A stretch of 64,000 nucleotides of DNA. It comes from Posidoniimonas corsicana. GTDB lineage: Bacteria; Planctomycetota; Planctomycetia; Pirellulales; Lacipirellulaceae. The stretch lies in NCBI RefSeq assembly GCF_007859765.1, contig NZ_SIHJ01000001.1, positions 2,991,075-3,055,074 of the forward strand, read 5' to 3'. Positions 36,093 through 62,422 of this stretch are shown here, piece by piece. Position 1 is the stretch's first letter, and every line of letters starts with the position of its first letter. The notes under the pieces were generated by a model. That model did not search any database. It had not been told where the DNA came from and saw only the letters and a list, made by a program, of their open reading frames with translations. The position numbers and the translations under genes were made by a program.

Positions 36093-37028
36093 TCAGCCTC
36101 GCAGCACGCTGACTCGGCCCGCGTCCGCGTCTAAGCGAACGCGGCCGCCATGTGGGAGCGTCAGGTTGGGAACCGTGTGCCCGGTCGGAAATCCCGCCAA
36201 GATTGGCGCGTCGACGTCGGAGAAGTAGTGCTCAAGCACCTGAACGCAGGTCGGCGAGGCGTCGTTCTCGTCTGCCTCGCAGTCGGTAAACTGCCCGAGG
36301 ATCACCCCGGCAACCTCGTCCAGCCGCCCGGCGAGCCGCAGCTGAGCTAGCATCCGGTCAACCCGGTAGGGCGCCTCGGCGAGGTCCTCGAGCAGCAGCA
36401 CGCGTCCGGCGAACGCCGGCTCGAAGCGGGTCCCGAGCAGCCCTACGAGCACCGCCAGGTTGCCGCCCACGAGCTCACCCTCGCAGGCGCCACCGCGCAG
36501 GGTCCTGAGCGTCGCGCCCGTTTCTTCGACCGGCAGGTCGTATGACCCGCGGCCGCTGACGGCGGACCAGAACGCGTCGACGGACGGGGCGTCTAGCTTG
36601 CCACCGCCGCAGAGCCCGTCGATGGCGTTGGGCGAGTGGAAGCTCGCCAAGCCCGCGTGACGATCGACCGCGGCGTGCAACGCGGTCAAGTCGCTGTAGC
36701 CGATCAGCGGCTTGGGGTTGCTCCTGATGACGCCGAAGTCCAGCCGATGGAGCAGCCGCGCAACGCCGTACCCGCCGCGGGCGGCGAACACCGCTGCGAC
36801 GTCGTCGTCGGTGAACGCGCGCATGATCTCTTCGGCGCGGACGTCGTCGGTCCCCGACAGGTAGCCGACCGGTTCGCTAAGCGAGCGGTACACCTTCGGG
36901 CGGTAGCCGGCGTCGGTCAGATTATGGACAGCGAACTCAACCTGCTCGGCGGTGGGCGAACTGGCGGGCGCAATCAGTGCGACGCCAGCACCGGGCTCGA
37001 TCGGCGGTGGTGTGATTCGGGAAGGCAA
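36093..37028 (-). CDS. ldcA: Muramoyltetrapeptide L,D-carboxypeptidase, S66 family
   Basis: 311 residues. The TTG start at 37028 is supported by GGAG 5 nt upstream. S66 landmarks: GVALIAPASSPT at the N-terminus, FAARGGYGVARLL, the nucleophile Ser in PLIGYSDLTALHAA, GELVGGNLAVLVGLLGT, the catalytic Glu in VLLLEDLAEAPYRVDRML and His in FPTGHTVPNLTLPHG. The enzyme removes the terminal D-Ala from tetrapeptide during cytoplasmic murein recycling. It ends an operon with the M14 peptidase, SpmA and SpmB (22 bp after SpmB), linking it to the neighbouring anmK and murQ. Confidence 0.95.
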   Translation of the reverse strand: MPSRITPPPIEPGAGVALIAPASSPTAEQVEFAVHNLTDAGYRPKVYRSLSEPVGYLSGTDDVRAEEIMRAFTDDDVAAVFAARGGYGVARLLHRLDFGVIRSNPKPLIGYSDLTALHAAVDRHAGLASFHSPNAIDGLCGGGKLDAPSVDAFWSAVSGRGSYDLPVEETGATLRTLRGGACEGELVGGNLAVLVGLLGTRFEPAFAGRVLLLEDLAEAPYRVDRMLAQLRLAGRLDEVAGVILGQFTDCEADENDASPTCVQVLEHYFSDVDAPILAGFPTGHTVPNLTLPHGGRVRLDADAGRVSVLRG

Positions 37029-40250: not shown

Positions 40251-41339
40251 TTGGCGAATCAACTGGTCGACGCGATTGGACTGATGAGCGGCACCTCCGC
40301 CGACGGCGTCGACGCCGCGCTGGTCCGCACCGACGGCGAAGCGCACGTCGAGTTCTGCGGCGGCCTGACGGTCGACTACGAGCCGGAACTGCGGGCCCGT
40401 CTGCTCGACGCCTCGCAGCACGACGTGCCGCTCATTGAGGTGCTGCGTCTGGAGCGTGAGATCACCCAGCTGCACGCCGAGGCGGTCCGCGAGCTGCTGG
40501 CCCAGACCAAGGGCGGCAAGCACAAGCCCTCGATCGTCGGGTTTCACGGGCACACCGTCCGCCACGTGCCCCGCGAGCACCTCACCATGCAGATCGGCAA
40601 CCCGTGGCTGCTGACCGAGTTGGTTGGCCTCCCGGTGGTGTCCGACTTCCGCCGCCACGACGTGGCCAAAGGGGGGGAAGGGGCGCCCCTGGTGTCGATG
40701 TTCCACCACGCTTTGTTCCAAGACTGCGAGCGGCCGGTCGGCGTGCTCAACCTGGGCGGCGTGGCCAACCTGACCTGGCTCGGCGCCGACGACCAGATTA
40801 TCGCCGGCGACACCGGACCCGGCTGCGGCCTGCTCGACGAGTGGGCCCAAGAAATGGCCGGCCTTTCCCACGACACCGATGGGCAGCTGGCCCTCAAGGG
40901 GCGGGTCGATCAGTCGATCGTCGATGCGGCGCTCGCCGAGCCGTTCTTCCACAAGCGGCTCCCCAAGTCGGCCGACCGCTACGACTTCGACCACATCGAC
41001 GTGTCGATGCTGACCGTCGAGGATGGCGCGGCCACGCTCTGCGCCGTCACTGTACAGGCGATCGACCGGGCCGTCAGCGTGCTGCCCGCGCGGCCGGGGA
41101 CGCTGTGGGTCACTGGCGGCGGGGTGCACCACCCGGTGATCCTGAGCATGCTCCGCGAGTGCTTCAACGAGGTCCGCTCCGTCGACGAACGCAGCCTCAG
41201 CCCGGACACGCTCGAGGCAGAGTGTTTCGCGTGGCTGGCGGTGCGGCACAAACGGGGGCTGCCGCTTACGATCCCCGAGACAACCGGCTGCAGCGAGCCG
41301 GTCTCTGGCGGCTTCACCGCGACCTCGACCAAGAAGTAG
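40251..41339 (+). CDS. anmK: Anhydro-N-acetylmuramic acid kinase
   Basis: 362 residues from a TTG start with GGGAG about 9 nt upstream. Family landmarks: AIGLMSGTSADGVDAALVRT (phosphate loop), GFHGHTVRHVP, PVVSDFRRHDVAKGGEGAPL, GVLNLGGVANLTWL and the GDTGPGCGLLDEW segment, and TLWVTGGGVHHPVILS. AnmK opens and phosphorylates 1,6-anhydroMurNAc to MurNAc-6-P, the substrate of MurQ. The murQ gene is convergent, 97 bp between stops. Length and motifs are complete. Confidence 0.96.
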   Translation: MANQLVDAIGLMSGTSADGVDAALVRTDGEAHVEFCGGLTVDYEPELRARLLDASQHDVPLIEVLRLEREITQLHAEAVRELLAQTKGGKHKPSIVGFHGHTVRHVPREHLTMQIGNPWLLTELVGLPVVSDFRRHDVAKGGEGAPLVSMFHHALFQDCERPVGVLNLGGVANLTWLGADDQIIAGDTGPGCGLLDEWAQEMAGLSHDTDGQLALKGRVDQSIVDAALAEPFFHKRLPKSADRYDFDHIDVSMLTVEDGAATLCAVTVQAIDRAVSVLPARPGTLWVTGGGVHHPVILSMLRECFNEVRSVDERSLSPDTLEAECFAWLAVRHKRGLPLTIPETTGCSEPVSGGFTATSTKK

Positions 41340-41436: not shown

Positions 41437-42411
41437 CTAGTGGGGGCCGGCACCATTGCTGCTCGCATGGTCGCTCGTCTGAGCCGGCGAGGTATGGGGA
41501 GGGGGCGCCGCCGGCGAGGGGATGCTCTGCAACGCACGGCCGATGTGCCCCCCCGAGGCCGCGAGCAGCTTGCGGGCCTCGTCGGCGTTGACGTTCGCCT
41601 GCCATGCAACGATGGCGGTCTTTACCTCCCACTCGCACGCCTCGAGCTGCTGGAGGCAGGCGTCGCTCTCCAGGCCGGTGACCTCGCGGACGATGCGGGC
41701 CGCACGCGCAGTGAGCTTGGTGTTGGTGGCCTGCAGGTCCACCATCAGGTTGCCATAGGTCTTGCCGAGCAGGATCATCGCCCCGGTGCTGAGCGTGTTG
41801 AGCACCAGCTTGGTAGCGGTGCCCGCCTTGAGCCGGGTCGAGCCGCTGACCACCTCAGGCCCCACCACCGGCGTGATCGCCAGGTCGGCTTCGGCCGTGA
41901 TCACCGACGCGCTGTTGCAGCTCAGGGCGACCGTGTAGGCGCCGCACTCACGAGCGTACCGCAGGCCGCCCACCACGTACGGCGTGCGGCCGCTTGTGGC
42001 GATGCCGACACAAACGTCGAGCGGGCCGACGTTGATGTTCTTCAGATCGACCGCCGCCAGGTTCGGATCGTCCTCCGCGCCCTCAACCGCCTTGAGCAGT
42101 GCGCCGTGACCGCCGGCGATAATCCCAATCACCTGACCGGGGTCAGAGTTGAACGTTGGGGGACACTCCGCCGCGTCGAGCACGCCGAGCCTGCCGGATG
42201 TGCCAGCGCCGAAGTAGATCAGCCGCCCGCCCTGAGCCAGCCGGTCAGCAGTGACGCTTACCGCCTCGGCGATCGCCTGCTCTTCAGCGGCGACCGCGGC
42301 CGCGACCTTCGCGTCCTCGCTGTTGATCAACCGCACGAATTCGAGCGCCGAAAGCGAATCCAGCTTCTCAGAAGCAGGGTTCCGGGACTCGGTGATAAGT
42401 TTGTCGAGCAT
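41437..42411 (-). CDS. murQ: N-acetylmuramic acid 6-phosphate etherase
   Basis: 324 residues. The SIS-domain etherase shows TESRNPASEKLDSLSALEFV, the sugar-phosphate site IYFGAGTSGRLGVLDAAECP, GIATSGRTPYVVGGLRYA, and SGSTRLKAGTATKLVLN followed by LSTGAMILLGKTYGNLMVDL. The C-terminal UBA-like helix region carries ACEWEVKTAIV. It converts MurNAc-6-P to GlcNAc-6-P plus D-lactate in the cytoplasm. The last 25 residues (SPAAPPPHTSPAQTSDHASS) are a disordered tail. It lies convergent with anmK and divergent from the multidomain amidase, all connected to murein salvage. Confidence 0.96.
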   Translation of the reverse strand: MLDKLITESRNPASEKLDSLSALEFVRLINSEDAKVAAAVAAEEQAIAEAVSVTADRLAQGGRLIYFGAGTSGRLGVLDAAECPPTFNSDPGQVIGIIAGGHGALLKAVEGAEDDPNLAAVDLKNINVGPLDVCVGIATSGRTPYVVGGLRYARECGAYTVALSCNSASVITAEADLAITPVVGPEVVSGSTRLKAGTATKLVLNTLSTGAMILLGKTYGNLMVDLQATNTKLTARAARIVREVTGLESDACLQQLEACEWEVKTAIVAWQANVNADEARKLLAASGGHIGRALQSIPSPAAPPPHTSPAQTSDHASSNGAGPH

Positions 42412-42737
42412 GCTTTTTTGGGTTCGTGTCGGTGACGGCCGAACGCCTGGCAGGAGCAGTTGGAGGGAGGCGTTAGGTCTGGCCCCACGCCCTTCATACG
42501 ATCCTATCTACTGGGTACGAGCGGTCCCAGATCAGATGCGCGAATGTGAGATAGAACTGCGCTGCCTCTCGTCGTGGCCCTTGTCACCTGCCAATACGAT
42601 CGATGTAGATCAGTCTATTGCCGCGCCAAAATCCCGCGTCTTGATTACGCTGAAGGATCACCCGTTTGCAAGCAGATACGGGTACGTGCACCCCCGCCGG
42701 GGGTTCGTGGCGGGCACGCCGGAACAGAGAGCACCTG
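42412..42737. promoter_or_regulatory. Divergent promoter region of murQ and the multidomain amidase
   Basis: 326 bp, no gene seen. For the plus strand a candidate is TTGTCA (42581-42586), a 17-bp spacer and TGTAGA (42604-42609); the -35 is good and the -10 weak. No promoter could be assigned for murQ, whose ATG has no clear ribosome-binding site but follows an A-rich stretch. Confidence 0.35.
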
Positions 42738-45700
42738 ATGACCAAACGCGTATCACCCCAGACGCCGCGACTCGGTCGCGCCGCGCGCCGGCTGTCGCTC
42801 GAGCCGCTTGAGCCGCGCCTCGCGCTGTCGTCCGCCGGGCTGATTGATATCGGCGCGCAGCCTTCCGGCGCGCTCGACGGCAAGATCGTCTACCTGCACG
42901 GCGGGCACGGCTACACCGCCGACAACCTGGGCAACGGCTCTTGGACCTCACAGCGGCCGCTGCTGTACCGGATGGTCGAAGACATGGGCAACCACGATCA
43001 GATGTCCTACCTCGCCCAGTACCTGTTCGATGCGGGCGCGACCGTCGTGCCGCTGAGGCCGGTTGGACACCAACCGAACGAGGTCGTGCTCGACAACGAC
43101 GATGTCGAGGTCACGTTCACTGGCGCGTGGTCCGACAGCAGCGCCAGCATCTACTTTGGCGACCCCGGTGACGTCCCGTACCGGTTCGCGTCGACCTCGT
43201 CCACCCAGACGGCCGCCGCTCAGTACCGTCCCAACATCTCCGAGCCGGGCTTCTACCCCGTGTATTCCTGGACGCGGTACGGGTCCGACCGCGCCGCCGA
43301 CCAGCTCTACCGGGTGCACCACTCGGGCGGCGTCACGGAGGTGACGGTCAACCACCGGCGGGTCGGCAACGGCACCGTCTACTTGGGGACGTACTACTTC
43401 GAGGCTGGCACGGACGGCTACGTGGAGATCAGCAACGAGTCGAGCGAGTCGGGCCGAGTCGTCATCGCGGACATGATCCGCTTCGGCAACGGGGTAGGGG
43501 ATATCAATCGCGGCGGCGGCGTCTCGGGGTTCGACCGCGAAGACGAGGCCGCGCTCTATTGGATTCAATGGCACGTGGACCACTCGCAGGGGGTGTCCAC
43601 GTCGACCTACCGCAGCAGCTCCGAGGACCGCTCCGCAACGGTGGGCGCGGCGCCAAGGTACGCCGAGTACATGAACCGCGAAGCCGACGGCGACCTGTCG
43701 GATCGGCTGTTTGTCAGCTTCCACTCTAACGCCGGCGGTGGCCGCGGCGTGGTCGGCCTGCACAACACATCCAGCGGGGGCGACACGCCAAACCAGCTGT
43801 TCCTCGCCCAGACGCTCGCCGAGCAGGTAAACGACGACCTGGTCGCCCAGAACGGCGACTTCGAGCACAACTGGTTCAACCGGACCAGCCTAACCTACCA
43901 GGCGTCGTTCAATTACGGCGAGATCAACAACGCCTACATCGACGACGAGTTCGACGCCACGATCGTCGAAACCGCCTTCCACGATAACGAGTTCGACGCG
44001 GAGCTGATGCGCGACCCCCGGGTCCGCGACGCGATCGCCCGGGCCACCTACCAAGGGATCGTCGACTACTTCCACGCGATCGACTCCGGCGCCACGCCCG
44101 ACACGGACGCCCCCGGCCAGCCAACGGACGTGTGGGTTGAAACGAAAACCGCCGGCGAGGCGGTGGTCCACTGGACTGCGGGCGCCGCGAACGGCTACGC
44201 GGGCGGACCCGCAGCAGGATTCACCGTGTACGCGTCGACCAACGGCTACGGTTTCGACGGCGGTCGGTACGTCGCGGGCGCCGGTGCAACCTCGCTAGTG
44301 ATCACCGGCCTGGACCCGGCGCAGGCCTACTTCTTCAAGGTCGTGGCCAACAACCAGGGGGGCCAGTCCCCCGCCAGCGAAGTGGTCGCCGCCAGCGCCT
44401 CAGGAGGGCAGGAGCGGGTCCTCATCGTCAACGGGTTCGATCGGCTCGACCGCTCACTCAATCCGACGCAGACGTTCGTCCAGGGCGGGCTGCTCGAGCG
44501 GGTCCGGCCGCGTCAGAGCAACTCCTTCGATTACGCGGTTCAGATGGCGTCTGCCATCCATTCGGCCGCGCCCGGGCTGTCCATTAGCACCGCCGCAAAC
44601 GAGCTGGTAGCCAACGGCACGGTCGACCTGACGGACTACGATGCGGTGTTCTGGATCCTCGGCGAAGAGTCGACCGCCGACCAGACGTTCGACGTCAGCG
44701 AGCAATCAGCAGTAGCCTCCTACCTGACAGGAGGCGGCAAGCTGTTTGTCTCTGGCGCCGAGATCGGCTGGGAGCTCGACAATCTCGGCGGCGGGCAGTC
44801 GTTCTACAACAACACCCTGCGGGCGGAGTACATCGCCGACGACGCCAACACCTACCAGGCTACGGGCGCGGTCGGGTCGATCTTCGAGGGGATCAACCTG
44901 ACCTTCGACGACGGAGATCTGTACTACGACACCGAGTACGCCGACGTCATCGCCCCCTCGGGCGGCGCGTCGCCGGCGCTGTCTTACGGGAACGGCGCGG
45001 GGACTGCCGCCGTGCAGTTCTCCCAAGGCGAAGAGCGGGTGGTGATGCTCGCCTTCCCATTCGAGACGATCACCGATGCAGCCGTCAGAGCCGAGATGAT
45101 GGCGCGGGTGATCGACTTCTTCGACGCGGGCGGTGGCGGCGTACCGACCGTGACCATCCAGGAGATCCTAGACAACGACGACGGCCCCGCTACCTACACC
45201 TCCACCACCGGATGGATCACCAGCAGCGACCCTGGATATCAAGGCGGGACCTTCCAGTTCAATTTGGTCGGCGGACAGGGCCAGGCCCAGTGGCGCACGA
45301 CGCTTCCTCTAGCAGGAACCGCCCAGGTCTACGTGCAGCACACCGCCGCAGGCAACCGCGCAACCGGCGCACGCTTCGAGGTCACATCCGGTGATCGGAG
45401 CATCAGTCAAAGTGTTAACCAAACCGCCAACAATCTGCAGTGGGTTTTGCTCGGGAGCCTGCCCGTCGAGGCCGGCGAGCTTACCGTCACACTGGACGTT
45501 GCGTCGAGCACCGGCCCGGCCAACTCGGTGATCGTCGCCGACGTCGTCCGAGTGGTGCTGACCGCTCCGATGCCTCCCTCGGGCGACTTCAACGATGACG
45601 GTTTCGTCGACGCCGCTGACTACACCGTGTGGCGGGACCAGAAGGACCAAACTGTCGAGCCGGGCACGGGCGCCGACGGAAACTTCGATGGCATTGTCGA

Positions 45701-46112
45701 TTCCCAGGACTACCAGCTGTGGCGATCACAATACGGCACAGCGATCGTGACGCCGACGCCAATTGTCATCGACACACCGACGGCCGCCACTCTTGAGCAA
45801 AGCCCATCCGTCGCAATGTCGCCAGCCACTGCGCAAGAACCGACGCCCACGCCGATCGAGCCGGCGTCACCCGGCCAACAGCTCGCACCGCTGCCTGCGA
45901 CCGCGACAGCCGAAGTGGTCGGAGAGCCCGTGATTCAGGACATCGTTTCGAGCGAACGAAACAACCAGTTGCTGCTGCTCTTCACAGACAATCCAACAGC
46001 TTCTTCCTCAGAGTTGGTCCTCGTCGAAGCGCTCTTTGACACCGACCAATCCGACGAGGAAGAGCCCGCCCGAGACGCCGTGTTCGCCCGATTTGGTTCT
46101 TCTGAAGTCTGA
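42738..46112 (+). CDS. Giant secreted amidase_3-type / xanthan-lyase-like protein with golvesin, Fn3 and dockerin modules
   Basis: 1124 residues from ATG 42738. It starts with the planctomycete export motif LEPLEPRLALS (21-31). The amidase_3-like core is KIVYLHGGHGYT (about 50), RLFVSFHSNAGGG (about 323) and TIVETAFHDNEFDAELM (about 408). A golvesin-type beta module (about 115-255; YRVHHSGGVTEVTVNHRRV, GYVEISNES) is inserted into it. Then come Fn3 (about 457-555), a GATase-like domain (about 558-805; ERVLIVNGFDRLDRS, YDAVFWILGEES), a second golvesin-type module (about 810-945), a dockerin repeat (GDFNDDGFVDAADYTVWRD, about 955-1005) and a Pro/Thr-rich tail. It may cleave the MurNAc-L-Ala amide of peptidoglycan or act on another acidic polymer. 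Its place beside murQ and anmK supports a wall role. Confidence 0.82.
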   Translation: MTKRVSPQTPRLGRAARRLSLEPLEPRLALSSAGLIDIGAQPSGALDGKIVYLHGGHGYTADNLGNGSWTSQRPLLYRMVEDMGNHDQMSYLAQYLFDAGATVVPLRPVGHQPNEVVLDNDDVEVTFTGAWSDSSASIYFGDPGDVPYRFASTSSTQTAAAQYRPNISEPGFYPVYSWTRYGSDRAADQLYRVHHSGGVTEVTVNHRRVGNGTVYLGTYYFEAGTDGYVEISNESSESGRVVIADMIRFGNGVGDINRGGGVSGFDREDEAALYWIQWHVDHSQGVSTSTYRSSSEDRSATVGAAPRYAEYMNREADGDLSDRLFVSFHSNAGGGRGVVGLHNTSSGGDTPNQLFLAQTLAEQVNDDLVAQNGDFEHNWFNRTSLTYQASFNYGEINNAYIDDEFDATIVETAFHDNEFDAELMRDPRVRDAIARATYQGIVDYFHAIDSGATPDTDAPGQPTDVWVETKTAGEAVVHWTAGAANGYAGGPAAGFTVYASTNGYGFDGGRYVAGAGATSLVITGLDPAQAYFFKVVANNQGGQSPASEVVAASASGGQERVLIVNGFDRLDRSLNPTQTFVQGGLLERVRPRQSNSFDYAVQMASAIHSAAPGLSISTAANELVANGTVDLTDYDAVFWILGEESTADQTFDVSEQSAVASYLTGGGKLFVSGAEIGWELDNLGGGQSFYNNTLRAEYIADDANTYQATGAVGSIFEGINLTFDDGDLYYDTEYADVIAPSGGASPALSYGNGAGTAAVQFSQGEERVVMLAFPFETITDAAVRAEMMARVIDFFDAGGGGVPTVTIQEILDNDDGPATYTSTTGWITSSDPGYQGGTFQFNLVGGQGQAQWRTTLPLAGTAQVYVQHTAAGNRATGARFEVTSGDRSISQSVNQTANNLQWVLLGSLPVEAGELTVTLDVASSTGPANSVIVADVVRVVLTAPMPPSGDFNDDGFVDAADYTVWRDQKDQTVEPGTGADGNFDGIVDSQDYQLWRSQYGTAIVTPTPIVIDTPTAATLEQSPSVAMSPATAQEPTPTPIEPASPGQQLAPLPATATAEVVGEPVIQDIVSSERNNQLLLLFTDNPTASSSELVLVEALFDTDQSDEEEPARDAVFARFGSSEV

Positions 46113-48727: not shown

Positions 48728-48760
48728 GCGTCTTGGCAGAAATGCCAAGACGCTTTTTTT
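48728..48760 (+). terminator. Strong intrinsic terminator with GAAA tetraloop
   Basis: Perfect 11-bp stem GCGTCTTGGCA (48728-48738) / TGCCAAGACGC (48743-48753), GAAA tetraloop (48739-48742) and seven T (48754-48760). It ends the PEP-CTERM paralogue B transcript and isolates the following DigH-AmpG-GNAT-NagZ operon. Confidence 0.93.
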
Positions 48761-48845: not shown

Positions 48846-50378
48846 ATGAAGTGCATACCTTTGCTGGCGTCTGTGATCGCCGTTGCCGCCTGCGCCTTGA
48901 CGACCTCCGCACCGGTGCGAGGGGCGGCCCCCCCTCAGATCGAAAGCGAGTTCCGCGCCGCCTGGATAGCGACCGTCGCGAACATCGACTGGCCGTCGAA
49001 GCCCGGGCTGTCGGTCAAACGGCAGAAGCAAGAGTTCGTCGACCTGCTCGACGCGGCCGTCGACCTGAACCTGAACGCCGTTGTGCTGCAGGTGCGGCCT
49101 GCGTGCGACGCCATCTACCGCTCCGAGCTGGAGCCCTGGTCCTCGGTGCTATCGGGCCGCATGGGCGTTGCCCCAGACCCCGCGTACGACCCGCTGGAGT
49201 TCGCGGTCGCCGAGGCGCACCGCCGCGGCCTGCAGCTGCACGCTTGGTTCAACCCCTATCGGGCGTCACACCCTTCTTACAAGGGTGAGCTCTCCTCGGA
49301 CCACGTCAGCGAACGCCTGCCCAACTCGGTCGTCGAGTACGGCTCCTACCTGTGGCTCGATCCGAGCGACGCTGATGCAGCGAAGCACTCCCTGGACGTG
49401 ATTCTCGACGTGGTCCGCCGGTACGACATCGACGGCGTTCACTTCGACGACTACTTCTACCCCTACCCAATCACCCAAACCGCCGAGGACGCGAACAACG
49501 GTCTGGAGGGCGGCGTCGCGAAGAGCGGCAAGGTCCCCTTCCCCGACGACCGCAGTTGGAACGCGTACGTCGCATCCACCGACGCAGGCGAGCGTCTTGC
49601 CAGGCCCGACTGGCGACGGCAGAGCATCAATAACTTCGTGCGAGACGTCTACCATGGCGTTAAGCGAGAGAAGCCGCACGTGCTGTTCGGCATCAGCCCG
49701 TTCGGCATCTGGAGGCCCGGCCACCCGGCATCGGTCGTCGGATTCGACGCCTACGCCGAGCTCTACGCCGACTCCAAGCTTTGGCTGGAGGAGGGCTGGG
49801 TCGACTACTTCACCCCGCAGCTCTACTGGCCGGTCCGCTCATCGGGGCAGAGCTACCCCGTGCTGCTGGAGTGGTGGACGCGGCAGAACCCCCACGGGCG
49901 GCCGATCTGGCCCGGCCTGTTCACGTCCAAGGTGCGTCAATCACCGCGTGGCAAAGACTGGGGCGCCAGTGAGATCGTCGAGCAGGTTCAGATAACCCAA
50001 GCCTTTGATGACGCCGGCGGAAATGTGCACTTCAGCATGAAGGCCCTGTCCCAGAACTACGGCGGCGTCGCGGACGCGCTCCGCGAGGGCCCCTACCGCA
50101 CCCCCGCCCTGCCGCCCAACTGCGGCGCACTGGGCGGCGCTAGCGCCCCGCCCGCCCAGCCCACCGCTACACTAGATGCGGGTCGGATCCGCCTCCAGCC
50201 CGACGCGGCGCCCTGGCTGTGGGCCGTGCAGACACGCGACGCTTCCGGCTGGACCACCCGGGTGCTACCGGGTGCGACGGAAAGCGTTGAGGTCGCCAAC
50301 GGCGCGCAAGAGGTGGTCATTACCGCGGTCGATCGCCTGGGACAACGCAGCGTGCCCGCACGGGTCGTCCCCCAGTAG
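48846..50378 (+). CDS. GHL10-family exported glycoside hydrolase (DigH/YngK-like)
   Basis: 510 residues. Signal peptide LASVIAVAACALTTSAPVRG. The GHL10 (DUF187-type) barrel shows FRAAWIATVANIDWPSKPGL, LNAVVLQVRPACDAIYRSEL, LQLHAWFNPYRAS, DIDGVHFDDYFYPYP (about 197-211), GISPFGIWRPG, WVDYFTPQLYWPVRSSGQSY and PIWPGLFTSKV. A C-terminal beta-sandwich (about 425-510) is Fn3-like. E. coli DigH of this family cleaves amidase-denuded peptidoglycan glycans. Here the gene leads an operon with AmpG-like (26 bp), GNAT and NagZ, so a murein substrate is likely but inferred. Confidence 0.88.
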   Translation: MKCIPLLASVIAVAACALTTSAPVRGAAPPQIESEFRAAWIATVANIDWPSKPGLSVKRQKQEFVDLLDAAVDLNLNAVVLQVRPACDAIYRSELEPWSSVLSGRMGVAPDPAYDPLEFAVAEAHRRGLQLHAWFNPYRASHPSYKGELSSDHVSERLPNSVVEYGSYLWLDPSDADAAKHSLDVILDVVRRYDIDGVHFDDYFYPYPITQTAEDANNGLEGGVAKSGKVPFPDDRSWNAYVASTDAGERLARPDWRRQSINNFVRDVYHGVKREKPHVLFGISPFGIWRPGHPASVVGFDAYAELYADSKLWLEEGWVDYFTPQLYWPVRSSGQSYPVLLEWWTRQNPHGRPIWPGLFTSKVRQSPRGKDWGASEIVEQVQITQAFDDAGGNVHFSMKALSQNYGGVADALREGPYRTPALPPNCGALGGASAPPAQPTATLDAGRIRLQPDAAPWLWAVQTRDASGWTTRVLPGATESVEVANGAQEVVITAVDRLGQRSVPARVVPQ

Positions 50379-50404
50379 CCCGAACGCTCCCGACTAGGTT
50401 CCGC

Positions 50405-51727
50405 ATGGCGTCCCCGACCACTACCGAGCGCGAGGAGCGGCCCGCATCTGTCGCCACGGCCCCTCCGGCCGAGCCGCCCGCCGGCGCGTCGGCCGCCTGG
50501 TGGTGGATCCCGACGCTCTACTTCGCCGAGGGGGTGCCGAACGAGGTTGTGATGTCGCTGGCGGGCGCCATGTACGCGCTGCTGGGGATCGGCAACCAGG
50601 AGATGGCCCTCTACACCGGCATGCTCTACCTGCCGTGGGTCCTGAAGCCGTTGTGGAGCCCGCTGGTTGACGTGCTCGGCACGCAGCGGCGGTGGATCAT
50701 CGGCACGCAGGTCGCCCTCGCCGCTGGCTTCCTGGGCGTCGCGGTCGCGTTGCCCACCGCCGGGTTCTTCTTCGGATCGCTGTGCTTCCTGTGGGTGCTG
50801 GCGTTCAGCTCCGCGACCCACGACATCGCCGCCGACGGGTACTACATGTCGGCACTGCCCGAGAAGAGCCAGGCCTGGTTCGTCGGCATCCGGAGCACGT
50901 TCTACCGCGGCGCCAAGTTCTTTGTTTCGGCCGTGCTGCTGGCTGCCGCCGGCAGGCTCAGCGGCGTGCTGCCTGAACAGCAGGCGTGGGCGTGGACGTT
51001 CGGCCTGGCTGCGCTGACCTACGTGGTGCTCGCGGCCTACCACGCGTGGAGCCTGCCGCCGCAGGTGGCCCCGCCCCGATCGGGCAGAACGGCCGCCGGC
51101 CTGCTGAGAGACCTGGGCGACACGTTCGTCTCGTTCTTTGAGAAGCCCGGCGTGGTCGTGGGCATCGCGTTCCTGCTCCTGTACCGATTCTCCGAAGCGC
51201 AGCTCGGCAAGATCGCTCAACCGTTCATGTTCGCGTCCCGCGCCGACGGCGGCTTGGCGCTCAGCCCGGAGAGCGTCGCGGTCATTTACGGCACCTTTGG
51301 TCTCCTCTTCCTGACACTGGGCGGCATCCTCGGTGGGTTCGCCATCGCCAAGCACGGGCTGCGGCCCTGGTTCCTGCCGATGGCGGTCGCGATCAACATC
51401 CCCAACGTGCTCTACCTGGTGCTCGCCACCACCCAGCCGGAGCAGCTGTGGCTAGTTGGGCTGGCGGTTTCGGTAGAGCAGTTTGGCTACGGGTTCGGCT
51501 TCGCGGCCTACCTGATGTACATGCTCAAGATCTCCCGCGGGGCTCACCAGACCGCACACTATGCGCTGTGCACCGGCTTCATGGCGTTGGGGGTCATGCT
51601 GCCGAGCATGGCGTCGGGCTGGGTGGAGGAGCGTCTGGGCTATGTCGGCTTCTTCTGGTGGATCCTCGTGGCGACCATCCCCAGCTTCGTCATCACCGCG
51701 GTCGCGCGGCGGGGAGTGGTGGATTGA
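50405..51727 (+). CDS. MFS transporter, AmpG-like muropeptide permease
   Basis: 440 residues. Roughly 12 helices after a 35-residue disordered N-terminus. AmpG-like MFS features: WWIPTLYFAEGVPNEVVM, LYLPWVLKPLWSPLVDVLG with RRWII (helix 2-3 signature), SATHDIAADGYYMSALP and LYRFSEAQLGKIAQPFMF. AmpG imports GlcNAc-anhMurNAc (peptides) from the periplasm. The assignment is strengthened by genes on both sides: a DigH-like hydrolase upstream, and a GNAT (4-bp overlap) and NagZ downstream. Sequence alone supports the MFS/AmpG superfamily; muropeptide specificity is inferred from context. Confidence 0.87.
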   Translation: MASPTTTEREERPASVATAPPAEPPAGASAAWWWIPTLYFAEGVPNEVVMSLAGAMYALLGIGNQEMALYTGMLYLPWVLKPLWSPLVDVLGTQRRWIIGTQVALAAGFLGVAVALPTAGFFFGSLCFLWVLAFSSATHDIAADGYYMSALPEKSQAWFVGIRSTFYRGAKFFVSAVLLAAAGRLSGVLPEQQAWAWTFGLAALTYVVLAAYHAWSLPPQVAPPRSGRTAAGLLRDLGDTFVSFFEKPGVVVGIAFLLLYRFSEAQLGKIAQPFMFASRADGGLALSPESVAVIYGTFGLLFLTLGGILGGFAIAKHGLRPWFLPMAVAINIPNVLYLVLATTQPEQLWLVGLAVSVEQFGYGFGFAAYLMYMLKISRGAHQTAHYALCTGFMALGVMLPSMASGWVEERLGYVGFFWWILVATIPSFVITAVARRGVVD

Positions 51728-52638
51728 AAACCACCCCACCCACCGCGCCCGTGCTGATCCGACCGATGACCCCAGCCGACACGCACTCCGCCAGGCTGCT
51801 GTGGAACCGCTCGGCGGAGCACGACTTCCTCTCCGGCAGGCTCTTCGAGGAAAAAGTATCCGGCGAGCCAACTGGCGCCACGCTGCTTGCCGAGCACGAG
51901 GGCAGTGCGGTCGGTTTGGTGGTCACCGCGTCCGATCCTGCCGGCGAGCGTGGCTTCATCAAGCTGCAGGCCACGCTGCCGGAGTGGCGTGGACGCGGCG
52001 TCGGCTCGGAGCTGCTCGCCGCCGCCGAGGCGGCGCTCCGCCAGCAGGGCTACCGGACCGTGAGGATCGCCGAGTCGGCGCCCAACTACCTGACGCCCGG
52101 CGTCGACGTCCGGTACGAATCGGCCCTGCGGTTCTACAGCCAACGTGGCTACCAGGAAATCGGCCGCGCCCAGAACCTCTCGGTCGACCTCGAGCAGTTT
52201 GAGGCCGCCCGACCGAGTTCAACATGTGTGGTCCCCCTCGACTGGAAGGTGCGCCGCGCCACCGACGAGGACCTCGACTCGCTGTTCGCTCTGCTCGCCG
52301 CGCACTGGCCCAGCTGGCGCCCCGAGGTGTCGACCTCGCTGCGAACGAGCCCCGGGTCGGTCTTCGTGGCTTCCCACGACAACCGCGTGCTAGGCTTCGC
52401 CGCGTACGACGGCAACAATGTGGGCTCCGGCTGGTTCGGCCCGATGGGCATGTCCCCGGAGATGCGGGGGCAGGGCGTTGGGCAGGCGCTCCTGCTGCAG
52501 ACGCTGCACGACATGCGGACCATCGGCTACCGGCGGGCCATCATCCCGTGGGTCGGGCCGGTGGAGTTCTACGAACGGGCGGTCGGCGCTCGCGCCTCGC
52601 GTCAGTTCGTCCGACTCGAAAAACAACTCACAGACTGA
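51724..52638 (+). CDS. Tandem GNAT acetyltransferase coupled to AmpG and NagZ genes
   Basis: 304 residues. The TTG start overlaps the AmpG stop (TTGA), and the stop is 2 bp before the NagZ start. Two GNAT domains are present: domain 1 (about 9-150) has PEWRGRGVGSELLAAAEAAL and ALRFYSQRGYQEIG; domain 2 (about 168-300) has EMRGQGVGQALLLQTLHDM and GPVEFYERAVGARASRQF. Both keep a Q/RxxGxG-like pyrophosphate loop (RGRGVG and RGQGVG). The strict coupling suggests a substrate in the salvage route, for example an amino sugar or muropeptide amine. This is inference; no characterised member can be named. Confidence 0.9.
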   Translation: MKTTPPTAPVLIRPMTPADTHSARLLWNRSAEHDFLSGRLFEEKVSGEPTGATLLAEHEGSAVGLVVTASDPAGERGFIKLQATLPEWRGRGVGSELLAAAEAALRQQGYRTVRIAESAPNYLTPGVDVRYESALRFYSQRGYQEIGRAQNLSVDLEQFEAARPSSTCVVPLDWKVRRATDEDLDSLFALLAAHWPSWRPEVSTSLRTSPGSVFVASHDNRVLGFAAYDGNNVGSGWFGPMGMSPEMRGQGVGQALLLQTLHDMRTIGYRRAIIPWVGPVEFYERAVGARASRQFVRLEKQLTD

Positions 52639-52640
52639 CT

Positions 52641-54209
52641 ATGGAAACCGCCGTGGCGCCCACAACCGAGCAGCTCACGCTGGAAGAAAAACTCGCTCAG
52701 CTCATGTTCGTGCGGATGGGCTCCAACCTGCCGCCGATCGTGACCGCCTCGGACGACGAGCAACGCGTCGCCGAACTGCTGGAGCGCTGCCCGATCGGCG
52801 GGCTCCTGCTGTTCAACGGCGTGTGGCCCCACGTGCGCGACTCGCTCACCCGCCTGCAGGCCAAGTCGCGCGTCCCACTCCTCGTCTCGGCCGACCTCGA
52901 GCGCGGCGCCGGGCAGCAGGTCGGTGGGCTCACCGTGTTCCCGCACGCCCGCGCCTTCGCCCAACTCGGCGATCAGGCCGAATCCTCCCTCCGCGACGCA
53001 ATCTCCATCACCGCCCGCGAGGCGCTGCAGGCGGGCGTGCAGATCCTGTTCGCTCCGGTCGCGGACGCAAACACCAACCCGCAGAACCCGATCATCGCCA
53101 CCCGCGCGTACGGCGAGGACCCCGCCGAGGTCGCGCGGCTCGTGGCCGTTGTGGTCGAAGCCGCCGGCCAGGCGGGCGCGCTCGCCGCCGCCAAGCACTT
53201 CCCCGGCCACGGCGACACCAGCCAGGACTCGCACGACGGGCAGCCCTGCGTCGACCGCCCGGCCGACGAGCTGCACGCCTGCGAGCTGCCCCCCTTCCGG
53301 TCCGCCATCCAGTCGGGCGTCCCGCTGATTATGTCGGCCCATGTCAGCTACCCTGCTCTCGACCCAACCGGCGAGCCGGCCACGTTCTCCAAGCCGATCC
53401 TCACCGACCTGCTGCGCGGCGAGCTCGGGTTCACCGGCGCGGTCTGCTCCGACAGCCTGCTGATGGCCGGCGCGCGCGACCGCTACCAGTCCGAGGGCCA
53501 GATGGCCGCGGCGGCCTTGTTGGCGGGCGTCGACATGCTGTTGGACCTGGCGGACCCGGCCGCGGCGGTCGCGGAAATGGCGGAGCTGGTCCGTTCGGAA
53601 CAAATCCCCGAGGCCCGCGTCAACGAGGCGGTCGGCCGGGTGCTCAAGCTCAAAGCGAAGATCGCCAACCAGGCGCCGCACGCCGATCCGATCCCGGCAG
53701 AGCAGGTCCAAGAGCACAAGCGCACGGCCGCCGCGATCGCCAAGGCAGCGATCCGCGTGGTCTCACCGGCCGGCGGCGCCCCGCCTCGACTGGCGCCCGA
53801 CAAGCCGACCACCGTGGTGCTGATGAAGCCGTTCAACCTGCCCAGCGACCCCGCCCAACAACCACTGGCCGCGGCCATCCAGCAACGGATCCCCTCCGCC
53901 CAGTACTTCGAGTTCGGCCCCGACGTCGACGCCGACCTCCGCGACCAAGCGGTCGCCGCCGCCCAAAACGGCGGGCAGCTTCTCGTGGCGATCATCGCCA
54001 AGCCCGCGGCCTGGCACGCGTTCGGGATGACCGACCCGCAACGCCAACTGGCGGACGACCTGGCCCAACTCGACGGCGCCGTGATCGCGTCGCTCGGCGT
54101 GCCCACCATCCTGCAGGACTTCCCCGCCGCGGTCCCCAAGCTCTGCACCTACAGCGACGTGCCCGACTCCCAAACCGGCCTGGCCGACCTGCTCTGCCCG
54201 ACCGCCTAG
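52641..54209 (+). CDS. nagZ: Beta-N-acetylhexosaminidase NagZ-type, GH3, with C-terminal extension
   Basis: 522 residues without a signal peptide, so cytoplasmic. The GH3 barrel (about 12-345) shows LTLEEKLAQLMFVRMG, PLLVSADLERGAGQQVGGLT, the NagZ-defining His/Asp loop KHFPGHGDTSQDSH (about 184-197) and the nucleophile Asp in GFTGAVCSDSLLMAGA. The KHFPGHGDTxxDSH loop distinguishes it from the beta-glucosidase at 3836-6214. The enzyme removes GlcNAc from GlcNAc-anhMurNAc products. The extra C-terminal domain (about 365-522; TTVVLMKPFNLPSD) is like the second domain of long Gram-positive NagZ. It ends the DigH-AmpG-GNAT operon. Confidence 0.94.
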   Translation: METAVAPTTEQLTLEEKLAQLMFVRMGSNLPPIVTASDDEQRVAELLERCPIGGLLLFNGVWPHVRDSLTRLQAKSRVPLLVSADLERGAGQQVGGLTVFPHARAFAQLGDQAESSLRDAISITAREALQAGVQILFAPVADANTNPQNPIIATRAYGEDPAEVARLVAVVVEAAGQAGALAAAKHFPGHGDTSQDSHDGQPCVDRPADELHACELPPFRSAIQSGVPLIMSAHVSYPALDPTGEPATFSKPILTDLLRGELGFTGAVCSDSLLMAGARDRYQSEGQMAAAALLAGVDMLLDLADPAAAVAEMAELVRSEQIPEARVNEAVGRVLKLKAKIANQAPHADPIPAEQVQEHKRTAAAIAKAAIRVVSPAGGAPPRLAPDKPTTVVLMKPFNLPSDPAQQPLAAAIQQRIPSAQYFEFGPDVDADLRDQAVAAAQNGGQLLVAIIAKPAAWHAFGMTDPQRQLADDLAQLDGAVIASLGVPTILQDFPAAVPKLCTYSDVPDSQTGLADLLCPTA

Positions 54210-56252: not shown

Positions 56253-56516
56253 CTCGCGGTATCCCCGTCTGGCACTCGGCGTCCCGGCTAGCCGGGCGCC
56301 ATGCTCACACGCGAGAGCGGGTGAGCACTCTAGTTGTTGCATCCCCGTCAAGCACGCCGGCGCCGGCCGCGGCGATCTGACCGGATCTCTGAGCCGCACA
56401 CCTCGCGGCGGTCTTCGGGTAGATTGGGCGTGCGATTGCACCGCACGCTACGACCACCCCACCGAACTCCCACCGTTGGCGGGTCGGGCCCCCGGGCCCG
56501 CCCCAAGAAGTACGCC

Positions 56517-57755
56517 ATGTCGACCGACGAGCCGGCCCAGAAGCGGATTGCGTCCCTGGACCAGTTCCGGGGCTACACCGTCCTGGCCATGTTCCTGGTC
56601 AACTTCTTAGGCAGCTTCGAGGCGTGCCACTGGCTGCTTCGGCACCACAACGTGTTCTGCAGCTTCGCGGACACGATCATGCCGCAGTTCCTCTTCGCGG
56701 TCGGGTTCGCCTTCCGGCTCAGCTTCGAACGCCGGATCGAATCCCGCGGCGCGCCGGCCGCCTACGCCCGCATGGTCCGCCGCCTGCTCGGGCTCGTGCT
56801 GGTGAGCCTGGTCGTCTACTCCGCCGGCTCGAGGGCCGAGACCTGGGACCAGCTGTCCACGATGGGCGCCTGGGAGGCCGTGCGGGGGCCGCTGAAGAGC
56901 ACCTGGTTCCAAACGCTGACGCACATCGCCGTCACCTCACTCTGGGTCCTGCCGGTGGTCCGAGCGGGCGTCGGTTGGCGGATTGCGTTCCTGCTGGGTT
57001 CGGCGGCGATCCACGTCGTGGCGTCGCACGCGTTCTACTTCCACTGGGTCAACAACGGGGCCCCCAACGGCATTGACGGCGGGCCGCTCGGGTTCCTCAC
57101 GTGGGCCGTACCGATGATCGTCGGCACGCTCGCCTACGACGCTGTGGCCCAACCGGAGGGCCGCCGCCCGCTGGCGTCGATGCTGCTCTGGTCGGCCCTG
57201 CTGATGGCGGCGGGCTACGCGCTCTCCTGCGGGACGCGGTTCTACGACGCGCCGTCTGCCACGCAGCCCGCGGCGACGAAGCTGGCCAGCCAACCGGTCA
57301 TCCCCACACCCGCGCAGGTGGCGACCGCCCGCGAGAAGGTGGCGAGCGGACAAGTCCTGCAACTGCTGGCCGAGCCGCCCTTCGTGCCGCCGCCCCACCC
57401 GGACGGCGACATCGGCAAGAGCCACCAGCTGCGGGCGTGGAACTACTGGATGATGAGCCAGCGGTCAGGCACGCTCTCGTACCAGGTGTTCGCAGCCGGG
57501 TTCTCGTTGGCGGTGTTCCTGCTGTTCTACGTCGGCTGCGACCTGTACGGCTGGCGGATTGGCGTGCTCTCCACCTTTGGCGCCAACGCCCTGGCGGCCT
57601 ACGTCCTGCACATGATGGTCGACCACTCGGTCAAGTCGTTCATGCCGCGTGACGCCCCGGAGTGGTACATGTGGGGCGGGTGCGCCGTGTTTATCGGAGT
57701 CACGTACCTGCTGGTCCGCAGCCTGGAACTGCGGGGCATCTACCTGAAGCTGTAG
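56517..57755 (+). CDS. NagX-like heparan-alpha-glucosaminide N-acetyltransferase family membrane protein
   Basis: 412 residues from ATG 56517. N-terminal signature RIASLDQFRGYTVLAMFLVN and the His-containing SFADTIMPQFLFAVGFAFRLS are typical of the DUF5009/COG4299 branch related to HGSNAT. About nine to eleven transmembrane helices follow. A soluble loop at about 250-320 (SATQPAATKLASQPVIPTP) interrupts them. HGSNAT enzymes acetylate terminal glucosamine across a membrane; bacterial NagX sits with GlcNAc utilisation genes. Location near nagZ and murQ fits amino sugar metabolism, but the substrate is not established. Confidence 0.82.
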   Translation: MSTDEPAQKRIASLDQFRGYTVLAMFLVNFLGSFEACHWLLRHHNVFCSFADTIMPQFLFAVGFAFRLSFERRIESRGAPAAYARMVRRLLGLVLVSLVVYSAGSRAETWDQLSTMGAWEAVRGPLKSTWFQTLTHIAVTSLWVLPVVRAGVGWRIAFLLGSAAIHVVASHAFYFHWVNNGAPNGIDGGPLGFLTWAVPMIVGTLAYDAVAQPEGRRPLASMLLWSALLMAAGYALSCGTRFYDAPSATQPAATKLASQPVIPTPAQVATAREKVASGQVLQLLAEPPFVPPPHPDGDIGKSHQLRAWNYWMMSQRSGTLSYQVFAAGFSLAVFLLFYVGCDLYGWRIGVLSTFGANALAAYVLHMMVDHSVKSFMPRDAPEWYMWGGCAVFIGVTYLLVRSLELRGIYLKL

Positions 57756-60393: not shown

Positions 60394-60415
60394 AGGACCT
60401 CCGGGCGGCGTCCGC

Positions 60416-62422
60416 TTATTCGGCTTGCAGCTGCGCCCAGGCCCAGCGGTACAGGTTCCGCGAGTCGACATATCGGGCGTCGCCCGAGGTGGCGCCGAGC
60501 ACGACCATGATGAGGTCCGCGTCGCCGCGGCGGCCGGCCGAGACCAGGCACGCGCCGGCCGGGCCGGTGGTGCCGGTCTTCACGCCGTAGAAACCCTCGA
60601 TGCCGAGCAGCCGGTTGGTGTTCTTCCACACCACGTTCCGCTGGTAGCCGTCGACCGAGTCGACCGTGATCGCGTGCAGGCGGGTGTTGACCACTTCGCG
60701 GAGCACGGGCAGATCGAGCGCCGCGCGGGCCAGCTTCACCATGTCGGCGGCGGTGGTGTGGTGGCCGTGCGCAGTGAGCCCGTGTGGGTTGCGGTAGCCG
60801 GTGCCGTCCATGCCGAGCTCTTCCGCGGCGCGGTTCATGGCGGCGATGAACGAGTCGTAGGGCGGTTGCTCCTCGGCCCCTTCTTCGGCCAGACGGGGGC
60901 CGAAGTGCTCGGCGAAGGCGACCGACATGTCATTGCCCGAGGGGAGCATCAGCCCGTACAGCGCGTCGGCGATCTTAACGCGTTCGCCGGCGCGGAGGTC
61001 GGACGTCGAGCCGGAGGTGTCGTCGGCCCGCTGCGAGAACGTGAGCACCTCTTCCAGGACCGACGGGTCCTGCTCCGCCAGGCGGCAGACGAGGTACGCG
61101 GTCATGATCTTGGTGACGCTCGCCGGGTCACGCCGCCGCGAGTCGTTGTAGCCCCACAGCACCTCGCCGGTCTTGGCGTCGGCGATCGCGTACGCCTTGC
61201 AGGTGACGATCGGAGGGCCCGCGAGCGTGTCGGCGGGGTCCTTCTTCTTGAGGCCCGCCATCGCCACGGCCGGCTCGGGCGTGGGCTCGTCCTCGGTGAC
61301 CAGCGGCCCGAGCGCCCGCCAGGTGTCGGGGCCGACCTCGCCGGTCGGCTCGACGCCGGCCTGCTTCTGGAACGCGATGACCGCCCGCTGGGTGTTGGGG
61401 CCGAAGTCGCCGTCGGCGCTGAGCTCGGGCGAGGGCTTCAGCTGCTTGTTGAGCGTGCGCTGGAGCGACTCCACCAATGTGCCGTCGGCGCCGACCTTCA
61501 GCACCCGGGCGACCACCGCGGCGGGGGCGTCCTCGTCGGTCCCGTAGTGGGTGTAGATCGCCTTGCCGAACTCGGCGGCCAGCAGCTCGGCCTCGTTCTC
61601 GTCGCCCCAGCTGTGGTCCTTGTTGTCGCCGGTCAGGATGCAGAACGCGATGGGGCCCTTGGGCGACTCGATAATCCCCGCGTCGCAGCGGGCGGCGGAG
61701 ACCGATCCCGTCTTGTGAGCGACGGGCGTGTCCTCGGGCAGGTAGCGGGGGACCTTGCTGCGCGACTCGCAGGCCAGCAGGTGCTGGTACATCGCTTCGC
61801 TCGCCTGGGAGCTGATCAGCTTGCGGTCGTTGATCTGCTCGAGCAGCTCGATCATCTCCGAGGCGGTGGTGCTCCCCAGCCCGAACTCGCGGCTCCGCTC
61901 GGGCGCGATCGAGGTGTCGCGGCGGAACACCTTGGCGTGCAGCCGCGTGCTGGGCAGGCCCAGTTCCTCCATGTACTCGGTGGTGGCGGGCAGGCCGACC
62001 TGGTCGATCACCAGGTTGGTGGCCGTGTTGTCGGAGAACGCGATCATCAGCCGGATCGCGTCGTGCAGCGGCATCGACAGGCCCGCCGAGAAGTTCTCCG
62101 TCAGCACTCCCGACCCGGGAACCTTGTCCTCCTCCTTGAGGGAAACCTCGTCGCTCATCTTGAGCCGCCCGTCCGCTTCGGCCTTGAAGGCGGCCGCCAT
62201 GATCGACAGCTTGATCAGGCTGGCGGTCGGCATCGGCTGGTCGGCGTTGAAGCGGAACTCCTTACCCGAAGGGAGGTGCTTCGCGGCCGCGGCGACCGTG
62301 CCGCGGTGCCCCTCGAGCAGCTCGGTGAGCGACGCTTCGAACGAGTCGGCCCCGATCGCCGCCGTGGCGAACAGGGTTAGCAGAACGGTGACAGCCGTCG
62401 CGCAGGTGGGCGCCTTCATCAT
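60416..62422 (-). CDS. Class A beta-lactamase-like / PG-binding / D-Ala-D-Ala carboxypeptidase fusion
   Basis: 668 residues. Signal peptide AVTVLLTLFATAAIGA. Domain 1 (about 28-295) is beta-lactamase-like: S68LIK71 in PTASLIKLSIMA, S130DN in FSDNTATN, KTG in AHKTGSVS. A clear ExxLN omega-loop Glu is not found. Domain 2 (about 315-375) is a PG_binding_1 module (SLQRTLNKQL, GDFGPNTQRAVIAFQKQAGV). Domain 3 (about 395-665) is an S11 carboxypeptidase: SVTKIMTAYL (about 436), MLPSGNDMSVAFAE and YGVKTGTTGPAGA (about 614). It would trim D-Ala from stem peptides in the periplasm while bound to glycan. It lies in a minus-strand operon with the epimerase and the GH9 fusion. Confidence 0.92.
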   Translation of the reverse strand: MMKAPTCATAVTVLLTLFATAAIGADSFEASLTELLEGHRGTVAAAAKHLPSGKEFRFNADQPMPTASLIKLSIMAAAFKAEADGRLKMSDEVSLKEEDKVPGSGVLTENFSAGLSMPLHDAIRLMIAFSDNTATNLVIDQVGLPATTEYMEELGLPSTRLHAKVFRRDTSIAPERSREFGLGSTTASEMIELLEQINDRKLISSQASEAMYQHLLACESRSKVPRYLPEDTPVAHKTGSVSAARCDAGIIESPKGPIAFCILTGDNKDHSWGDENEAELLAAEFGKAIYTHYGTDEDAPAAVVARVLKVGADGTLVESLQRTLNKQLKPSPELSADGDFGPNTQRAVIAFQKQAGVEPTGEVGPDTWRALGPLVTEDEPTPEPAVAMAGLKKKDPADTLAGPPIVTCKAYAIADAKTGEVLWGYNDSRRRDPASVTKIMTAYLVCRLAEQDPSVLEEVLTFSQRADDTSGSTSDLRAGERVKIADALYGLMLPSGNDMSVAFAEHFGPRLAEEGAEEQPPYDSFIAAMNRAAEELGMDGTGYRNPHGLTAHGHHTTAADMVKLARAALDLPVLREVVNTRLHAITVDSVDGYQRNVVWKNTNRLLGIEGFYGVKTGTTGPAGACLVSAGRRGDADLIMVVLGATSGDARYVDSRNLYRWAWAQLQAE

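Follow-up and report, generated by a model that had tools for sequence, protein, structure and literature searches.

At positions 48,846 to 54,209 of a 64,000-nucleotide stretch of the Posidoniimonas corsicana genome (contig NZ_SIHJ01000001.1; this whole stretch is hereafter called the window, and gene coordinates are positions in it) lie four consecutive genes that appear to serve murein salvage. The third gene, which encodes a protein with two GNAT domains in tandem, is the subject of this work. The operon and the stem-loop preceding it are composed as follows:

48728..48753, + strand: Rho-independent-terminator-like stem-loop (perfect 11-bp stem, T7), just 5' of the operon
48846..50378, + strand: GHL10 (DUF187) peptidoglycan glycosidase or lytic-transglycosylase-like protein, probably exported (PF02638; Cwp19 match)
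50405..51727, + strand: AmpG-like permease of the major facilitator superfamily (TIGR00901 below cut-off; best PDB match 8zgz)
51724..52638, + strand: tandem GNAT, assigned to a GlmA-like sister branch from its domains, profile, fold and residues
52641..54209, + strand: GH3 beta-N-acetylglucosaminidase, NagZ-like, 522 residues (PF00933; PDB 3sql)

The GHL10 and AmpG-like genes are separated by 26 bp, the AmpG-like and GNAT genes overlap by 4 bp (51724-51727), and 2 bp separate the GNAT from the GH3 gene; this order, with its coordinates and spacings, is exactly that of the original prediction, as an open reading frame check confirmed. The upstream terminator of that prediction also stands. Four terminator-like sites were found in a 6-kb scan where 3.1 are expected, and therefore only the stem at 48728-48753 is notable. 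No promoter-like site was found at the operon in the same 6-kb scan. The start codon of the GNAT gene is TTG, preceded by a GGGGAG-like site (identified by eye).

Both GNAT domains are recognized by general domain models, beyond which no curated family of Pfam or NCBIfam matches the protein above cut-off, and its next best match in its own genome is weak (30% identity, E 6.8e-6). When the single sequence is compared with the PDB, the matches are RmNag of Rhizomucor miehei (4zm6, E 3.8e-8) and the glucosamine N-acetyltransferase of Clostridium acetobutylicum (5kf1, E 4.3e-8), which we take to be the GlmA of Reith and Mayer (2011). A profile of nine homologues (A1) separates these matches further: the Clostridium entries 5kga, 5kf1 and 5kgh range from 3.6e-18 to 1.1e-17 (5kga 3.6e-18, 5kf1 4.7e-18), followed by RmNag (1.1e-11) and the next match at 1.4e-9, with the 5kga match spanning both domains (profile positions 11-281 of 302). 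Additionally, when an AlphaFold model of the protein (pLDDT 83.3) is searched with Foldseek, ranks 1 to 7 are all chains of the Clostridium enzyme or of RmNag (5kf1 with E 9.9e-22 and TM 0.83), and many other GNATs follow from rank 8 (1.2e-16) on. The protein has the tandem domains of 5KF1 and resembles it over its full length. The amino-sugar acetyltransferase proposed by the original prediction is still the best reading, given that these two enzymes are the nearest solved relatives by both profile and fold.

The conserved residues were counted over 83 distinct sequences, six of 89 rows being dropped as repeats (at most one letter differing). The motifs GWFGPM and ESAPNY served as search queries, and their conservation is therefore partly due to selection; D128, W198, E201, P275, W276 and Y283 lie outside both. 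The landmarks of the protein are an N-domain loop, NYLTPGVD (residues 121-128), W198, E201, P275-W276 and Y283. For RmNag, passages of PMC4680927 describe the C-terminal GNAT domain as the active one and a Y842A variant without transacetylation activity, suggest a possible sugar platform made up of Trp735 and Trp835, place Asp834 in the lining of the sugar pocket, and present a first-domain loop, PRFFPGVPDDDAQ, as missing from other GNATs. The RmNag residues Y842, W735 and W835 are aligned to Y283, W198 and W276 of our protein, respectively, and Y297 of the Clostridium enzyme is likewise a counterpart of Y283. This general-acid tyrosine is kept in 82 of the 83 sequences, and so is W198; W276 is invariant (83/83). 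The equivalent of the RmNag insert loop (654-666) is PNYLTPGVD, aligned to PRFFPGVPDDD, with P125 and G126 present in 83/83; N121, Y122 and D128 are equally invariant, though N121 and Y122 sit in a scan motif.

Based on the sequence, the model and the analogy with these enzymes, we propose, with a probability of roughly 0.57, that the protein is a cytoplasmic tandem-GNAT enzyme of the GlmA/RmNag type, an acetyl-CoA-dependent amino-sugar N-acetyltransferase that would restore glucosamine (GlcN) ends for NagZ. Catalysis would take place in the C-terminal domain, with Tyr283 as general acid and Trp198/Trp276 as sugar platform, and the N-terminal domain would be structural or would shape the acceptor site.

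The partner proteins are consistent with a salvage function. The first gene encodes a GHL10 domain (PF02638, E 4.5e-59) and, as judged by eye, an export signal containing a lipobox-like VAAC. Its single PDB match is the lytic transglycosylase Cwp19 (5oq2, E 1.7e-81); the earlier label "DigH-like" is correct at the family level, DigH presumably belonging to GHL10. Passages of PMC6016235 describe Cwp19 of C. difficile as a GHL10 lytic transglycosylase leaving 1,6-anhydroMurNAc ends and some reducing-end products, and a passage of PMC12288456 calls E. coli DigH a glycosyl hydrolase that degrades denuded glycans. The GHL10 domain is common to these proteins and to the operon gene, whose activity is predicted from it. 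For the permease, the best NCBIfam model is the AmpG family TIGR00901 (E 3.4e-46, with 158 bits below the cut-off of 350), and each of its four PDB matches is a muropeptide transporter of the AmpG type, 8zgz being the first (E 4.9e-11). The fourth gene matches PF00933 (E 3e-76), 3sql (E 1.9e-64) and the beta-N-acetylhexosaminidase model PRK05337 (E 1.5e-50, 172 bits, below its cut-off of 207); the NagZ His/Asp dyad and Asp nucleophile are found in KHFPGHGDTSQDSH and CSDS, aligned to the PDB match (by eye, KHFPGHGDTxxDSH and SDS). It is thus a predicted GH3 NagZ-like enzyme, whose action may be that of a hydrolase or of a phosphorylase. As a side observation, the AmpG-like permease of 11 relatives contains an in-frame insert of about 190-200 residues after query residue 186 (from hit spacing and the frames read; L098:5952-7988; L100, L102 and L103, in reverse-complement coordinates; L021:269-2317, with a longer insert), probably a periplasmic loop, and the permease of the window is without it.

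The linkage of the GNAT to its neighbors was examined in 196 genomes of the order Pirellulales (GNAT at E <= 1e-10; AmpG and GH3 at E <= 1e-30), of which 9 carry the GNAT, 32 this AmpG and 29 this GH3. In all eight carriers besides the window, AmpG immediately precedes the GNAT; GHL10 precedes AmpG in seven (the eighth contig starts at AmpG) and GH3 is directly downstream in six, so that the predicted ampG/nagZ linkage proves to be conserved. In the other two carriers, the contig ends after the GNAT (G158) or SpoIID and DUF4922 genes on the other strand take the place of GH3 (G194); these genomes (89 and 85% complete, respectively) contain no GH3 of this type at E <= 1e-30. With the junction starts picked by eye among the listed candidates, a GNAT start overlapping the AmpG stop by four bases is available in six of the nine carriers (+7, +13 and +22 in the others), and the NagZ start lies at -4 to +22 of the GNAT stop in all seven carriers showing NagZ. 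In a draw of 392 genomes from the phylum, which did not take in the eight order carriers, seven reach E <= 1e-25 against A1, namely the window, G505 and G511 at full length, and four (G256, G324, G423, G434) in the C-terminal part only. In a GNAT tree made with a quick method from 82 of the 89 rows (the six repeats and L164, cut at its start, being dropped), the nine Pirellulales rows require four changes and the window row sits on a long branch, a sequence-based placement that leaves room for one origin as well as for several. Viral contigs gave 16 pattern matches, but no relative is encoded in any of them.

Beyond the phylum, a genome-contig scan with two motifs gave 80 loci (the best 80 of 94 relatives), of which six planctomycete loci of this family were set apart, leaving 74; the scan, within these best 80, brought in no clostridial sequences. 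According to the titles of the records, which are mostly metagenome bins, the loci belong to Bacteroidota, Balneolota, Rhodothermota, Ignavibacteriota, Chlorobiota, Calditrichota, WOR-3, Eremiobacterota, Acidobacteriota, Spirochaetota, Pseudomonadota and others. In their fetched flanks we found AmpG (31 of 74), Golvesin/fn3 (24), DUF4922 (23), GT2 (22), SpoIID (20) and NamZ (13), and more rarely GHL10 (4), MurQ (4), GH3 (2) and AnmK (1), counts that are lower bounds because many contigs are short. AmpG, GHL10 and GH3 were chosen a priori as queries, and SpoIID, NamZ, DUF4922, GT2 and Golvesin after seeing the neighbors. AmpG, GHL10, SpoIID or NamZ is present in 39/74 loci and at least one of eight salvage-type genes in 44/74, and the controls, taken from other genes of the window, give GH9 2/74, M14 0/74 and HGSNAT 0/74. 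The typical order in Bacteroidota is Golvesin/fn3, GT2, DUF4922, GNAT, SpoIID, AmpG; since Amidase_3 was not reported in the three Bacteroidota-type Golvesin proteins scanned, no amidase activity is claimed for the Golvesin proteins there.

Two kinds of neighbor recur in these loci. Clusters with NamZ (exo-beta-N-acetylmuramidase) genes follow the GNAT in L112, L116, L117, L137, L142, L170 and L188, which are Pseudomonadota, Calditrichota, KSB1 and other bins, and the NamZ domain was confirmed in both proteins scanned (L188 and L112). A DUF4922 gene, accompanied by GT2 in Bacteroidota and in G182, recurs beside AmpG or the GNAT (L128, L158 and other Bacteroidota; L097:8119-10541 and L127:4631-5626, both on the - strand) and, in G182 and G194, lies within the planctomycete operon or next to it on the other strand; in G182, the DUF4922 and GT2 genes lie between AmpG and GH3. 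For a DUF4922 protein, no PDB match was obtained by sequence, and the papers found to name this domain deal with plant GDP-L-galactose phosphorylase; the gene may stand for an unknown amino-sugar salvage step.

Further recycling genes lie upstream of the operon:

36093..37028, - strand: LD-carboxypeptidase-like (LdcA) S66 peptidase (PF02016/PF17676; PRK11253 6.3e-52, below cut-off)
40251..41339, + strand: AnmK, anhydro-N-acetylmuramic acid kinase, in the same region but outside the operon (NF007141 7.6e-124, over cut-off)
41437..42411, - strand: MurQ, MurNAc-6-phosphate etherase (TIGR00274 2.9e-115, over cut-off)
42666..46112, + strand: Golvesin_C + fn3 + Amidase_3 protein, putative peptidoglycan amidase (Amidase_3 weak, 28.2 bits against 27)

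Among these genes there is also a protein with an M14 zinc-carboxypeptidase domain and a long Pfam-free C-terminal part (38447-40051, - strand). Downstream of NagZ, at 2.2 kb, a second acetyltransferase-type gene is found, with an HGSNAT_cat (heparan-alpha-glucosaminide N-acetyltransferase) domain (1.3e-7; 56418-57755, + strand, the start being chosen inside the frame 56334-57755), and at 3.7 kb a fusion protein with GH9 and polysaccharide deacetylase domains (57874-60471, - strand); Polysacc_deac_1 matches lie in similarly long frames in several relatives. Searches for AnmK, Polysacc_deac_1 and PF04748 covered 29 of the 32 AmpG genomes, three of family f7 being left out. AnmK (PF03702) is present in all 29, within about 40 kb of the operon on the same contig in 17 (coordinates read by hand), far off on the same contig in G081, G086 and G162, and on another contig in the remaining genomes. 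Given the LdcA-like, AnmK and MurQ genes upstream and the constant presence of AnmK, the operon therefore lies in a murein-recycling region with the post-NagZ steps present, and its earlier designation as a murein-salvage operon is borne out by this and by the conserved GHL10-AmpG-GH3 order.

In the mechanism we envisage, the GHL10 enzyme would cut glycan strands into (anhydro)disaccharides, which AmpG would import. On fragments whose non-reducing GlcNAc has been deacetylated, the GNAT would put the acetyl group back, so that the GH3 NagZ could cleave, and the anhMurNAc would pass to AnmK and MurQ, whose genes lie 6-9 kb upstream.

Several observations weigh against glucosamine as the acceptor, or against a role in recycling at all. 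GNAT folds are common, with 944 PDB chains matching at E <= 0.001. In addition, the pocket aspartate (D287 in the Clostridium enzyme, D834 in RmNag) corresponds to position 275, which is Pro in 80, Ala in 3 and Asp in none of the 83 sequences; the Asp287 position was assigned because 5kf1 and the D287N entry 5kga differ by Asp to Asn in the alignments. The acceptor or the base may therefore differ, which leaves room for another acceptor, and the protein is accordingly filed as a sister branch resembling GlmA and not as GlmA itself. A candidate replacement base is E201, three residues after the platform Trp, which is kept in 82/83 and has a Glu as its counterpart in the Clostridium enzyme. Within the same pathway, a different amine, either of MurN/anhMurN or of the stem peptide of the imported fragments, could also be the acceptor and be reflected in the loss of Asp287 and in the N-domain loop. 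The loop (HFFPGIP in the Clostridium enzyme and RFFPGVP in RmNag, against the invariant N121, Y122 and D128 here) and the 13/74 loci with NamZ, an exo-muramidase family, would suit this explanation, but the branch retains the Trp platform of the glucosamine enzymes as well as their general-acid Tyr, and no peptide-specific enzyme appears among the annotated neighbor proteins (many small clusters were left unannotated), and we regard it as rather unlikely.

Also contrary to the proposed role, 23 of the 32 AmpG genomes have the operon but no GNAT, among them the sole same-genus genome drawn (G048), and at 30 of the 74 loci elsewhere all eight salvage-type genes that were looked for are missing; 11 of these 30 have 6 kb on both sides, and other neighbors therefore exist in Ignavibacteria, WOR-3 and others. 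The GHL10-AmpG-GH3 order is kept in all 23 GNAT-less loci (some pieces being cut by contig ends, and three having a more distant GH3, of 31-34% identity), and thus the GNAT is an accessory gene inserted into an otherwise constant operon. GNATs are functionally labile, and these absences could mean that an enzyme with an unrelated substrate (small-molecule detoxification or protein acetylation) sits in the operon by chance. We consider this very unlikely, as the GNAT directly follows AmpG in all eight other carriers, has AmpG, NamZ, SpoIID or GHL10 nearby in more than half of the loci elsewhere (39/74), and has glucosamine acetyltransferases as its nearest solved relatives.

The supply of GlcN is a further difficulty. 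No N-deacetylase lies within the operon; Polysacc_deac_1 proteins occur in 28 of the 29 genomes searched and their counts fail to separate the nine carriers (3.9) from the 20 non-carriers (3.05; p = 0.12), and PF04748, the family of the denuded-strand deacetylase SddA, is found in none of the 29. As another alternative, the operon might serve nutrition, through uptake of partly deacetylated chitin/chitosan or foreign murein fragments whose GlcN ends the GNAT would ready for NagZ. The patchy distribution, fitting an accessory trait, the GH9-polysaccharide-deacetylase fusion near the operon and the acetylation by RmNag of GlcN to (GlcN)5 (in a passage of PMC4680927) are in line with such scavenging; yet the core GHL10-AmpG-NagZ operon, together with AnmK in 29/29 genomes, points to anhydro-muropeptides, and no chitinase is found among the 17 neighbor proteins scanned (the other neighbors being unannotated), which makes scavenging distinctly improbable in our view.

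The repair of GlcN ends proposed here has precedents. Passages of PMC4680927, citing Reith and Mayer (2011) on C. acetobutylicum, state that bacterial glucosamine N-acetyltransferases recover the non-reducing-end GlcN of peptidoglycan fragments ahead of beta-N-acetylglucosaminidase, and that RmNag, for which a role in fungal chitin metabolism is proposed, cleaves (GlcN)2 with acetyl-CoA and not without it. The original prediction of an undescribed biochemical step is thereby ruled out, acetylation of GlcN before glucosaminidase cleavage being already described for both systems. Concerning the substrate, passages of PMC12440217 report that E. coli makes GlcN-MurNAcAnh from denuded strands via SddA; in the main text of that article, the string "recycl" does not occur.

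The Clostridium enzyme (5KF1, 5KF2, 5KGA and 5KGH by title; 5KF8, 5KF9, 5KGJ and 5KGP with the same sequence) is, like our protein, a stand-alone tandem GNAT of about 300 residues, with the same fold, tyrosine (Y297/Y283), tryptophans and N-domain PG loop, and with the reported role of restoring GlcN ends. It differs in identity (about 20% in the fold alignment), in the Asp287 replaced here by Pro/Ala, in the loop (NYLTPGVD here) and in gene context, the gene described here being flanked by an ampG-like and a nagZ-like gene in a recycling operon of Gram-negative type. In RmNag (4ZM6), GH3 and tandem GNAT domains also act in sequence, and the loop and platform residues are shared, but the fungal protein is one fused chain where the window has adjacent genes, belongs to a chitin context, retains Asp834 and is about 19% identical (fold alignment). 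The AmpG-NagZ-AnmK-MurQ series is the anhydromuropeptide recycling of the E. coli type, and counterparts of all four are found in the window. To our knowledge, the textbook pathway contains no co-operonic GHL10 enzyme or GNAT, whereas the operon described here adds the former and, in some genomes, the latter. The reaction class is known, and what appears new, judging from the sequences, is the sub-branch without the GlmA Asp287 and its link to AmpG, for which we found no description in the titles and abstract openings of the open-licence literature.

Tentatively, and with less than even confidence, we suggest that the tandem GNATs with NYxxPGxD, GWFGPM and I[PA]W[VA] and without the GlmA Asp, which occur in more than 10 phyla (by record titles), form a widespread unrecognized branch that would be dedicated to N-acetyl repair in murein recycling of the AmpG type. 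Its acceptor would not be free GlcN but, for instance, GlcN-anhMurNAc or de-acetylated muramic acid, and it would often travel with SpoIID, GHL10, NamZ and the DUF4922-GT2 pair, the latter possibly forming a second, unknown salvage step. In the window and in six of the eight related carriers, the GNAT gene follows an ampG-like gene and precedes a nagZ-like one, and in other phyla it is found beside ampG; its product is a candidate repair step by which GlcN-MurNAcAnh-type fragments may re-enter AmpG/NagZ recycling in Gram-negative bacteria.

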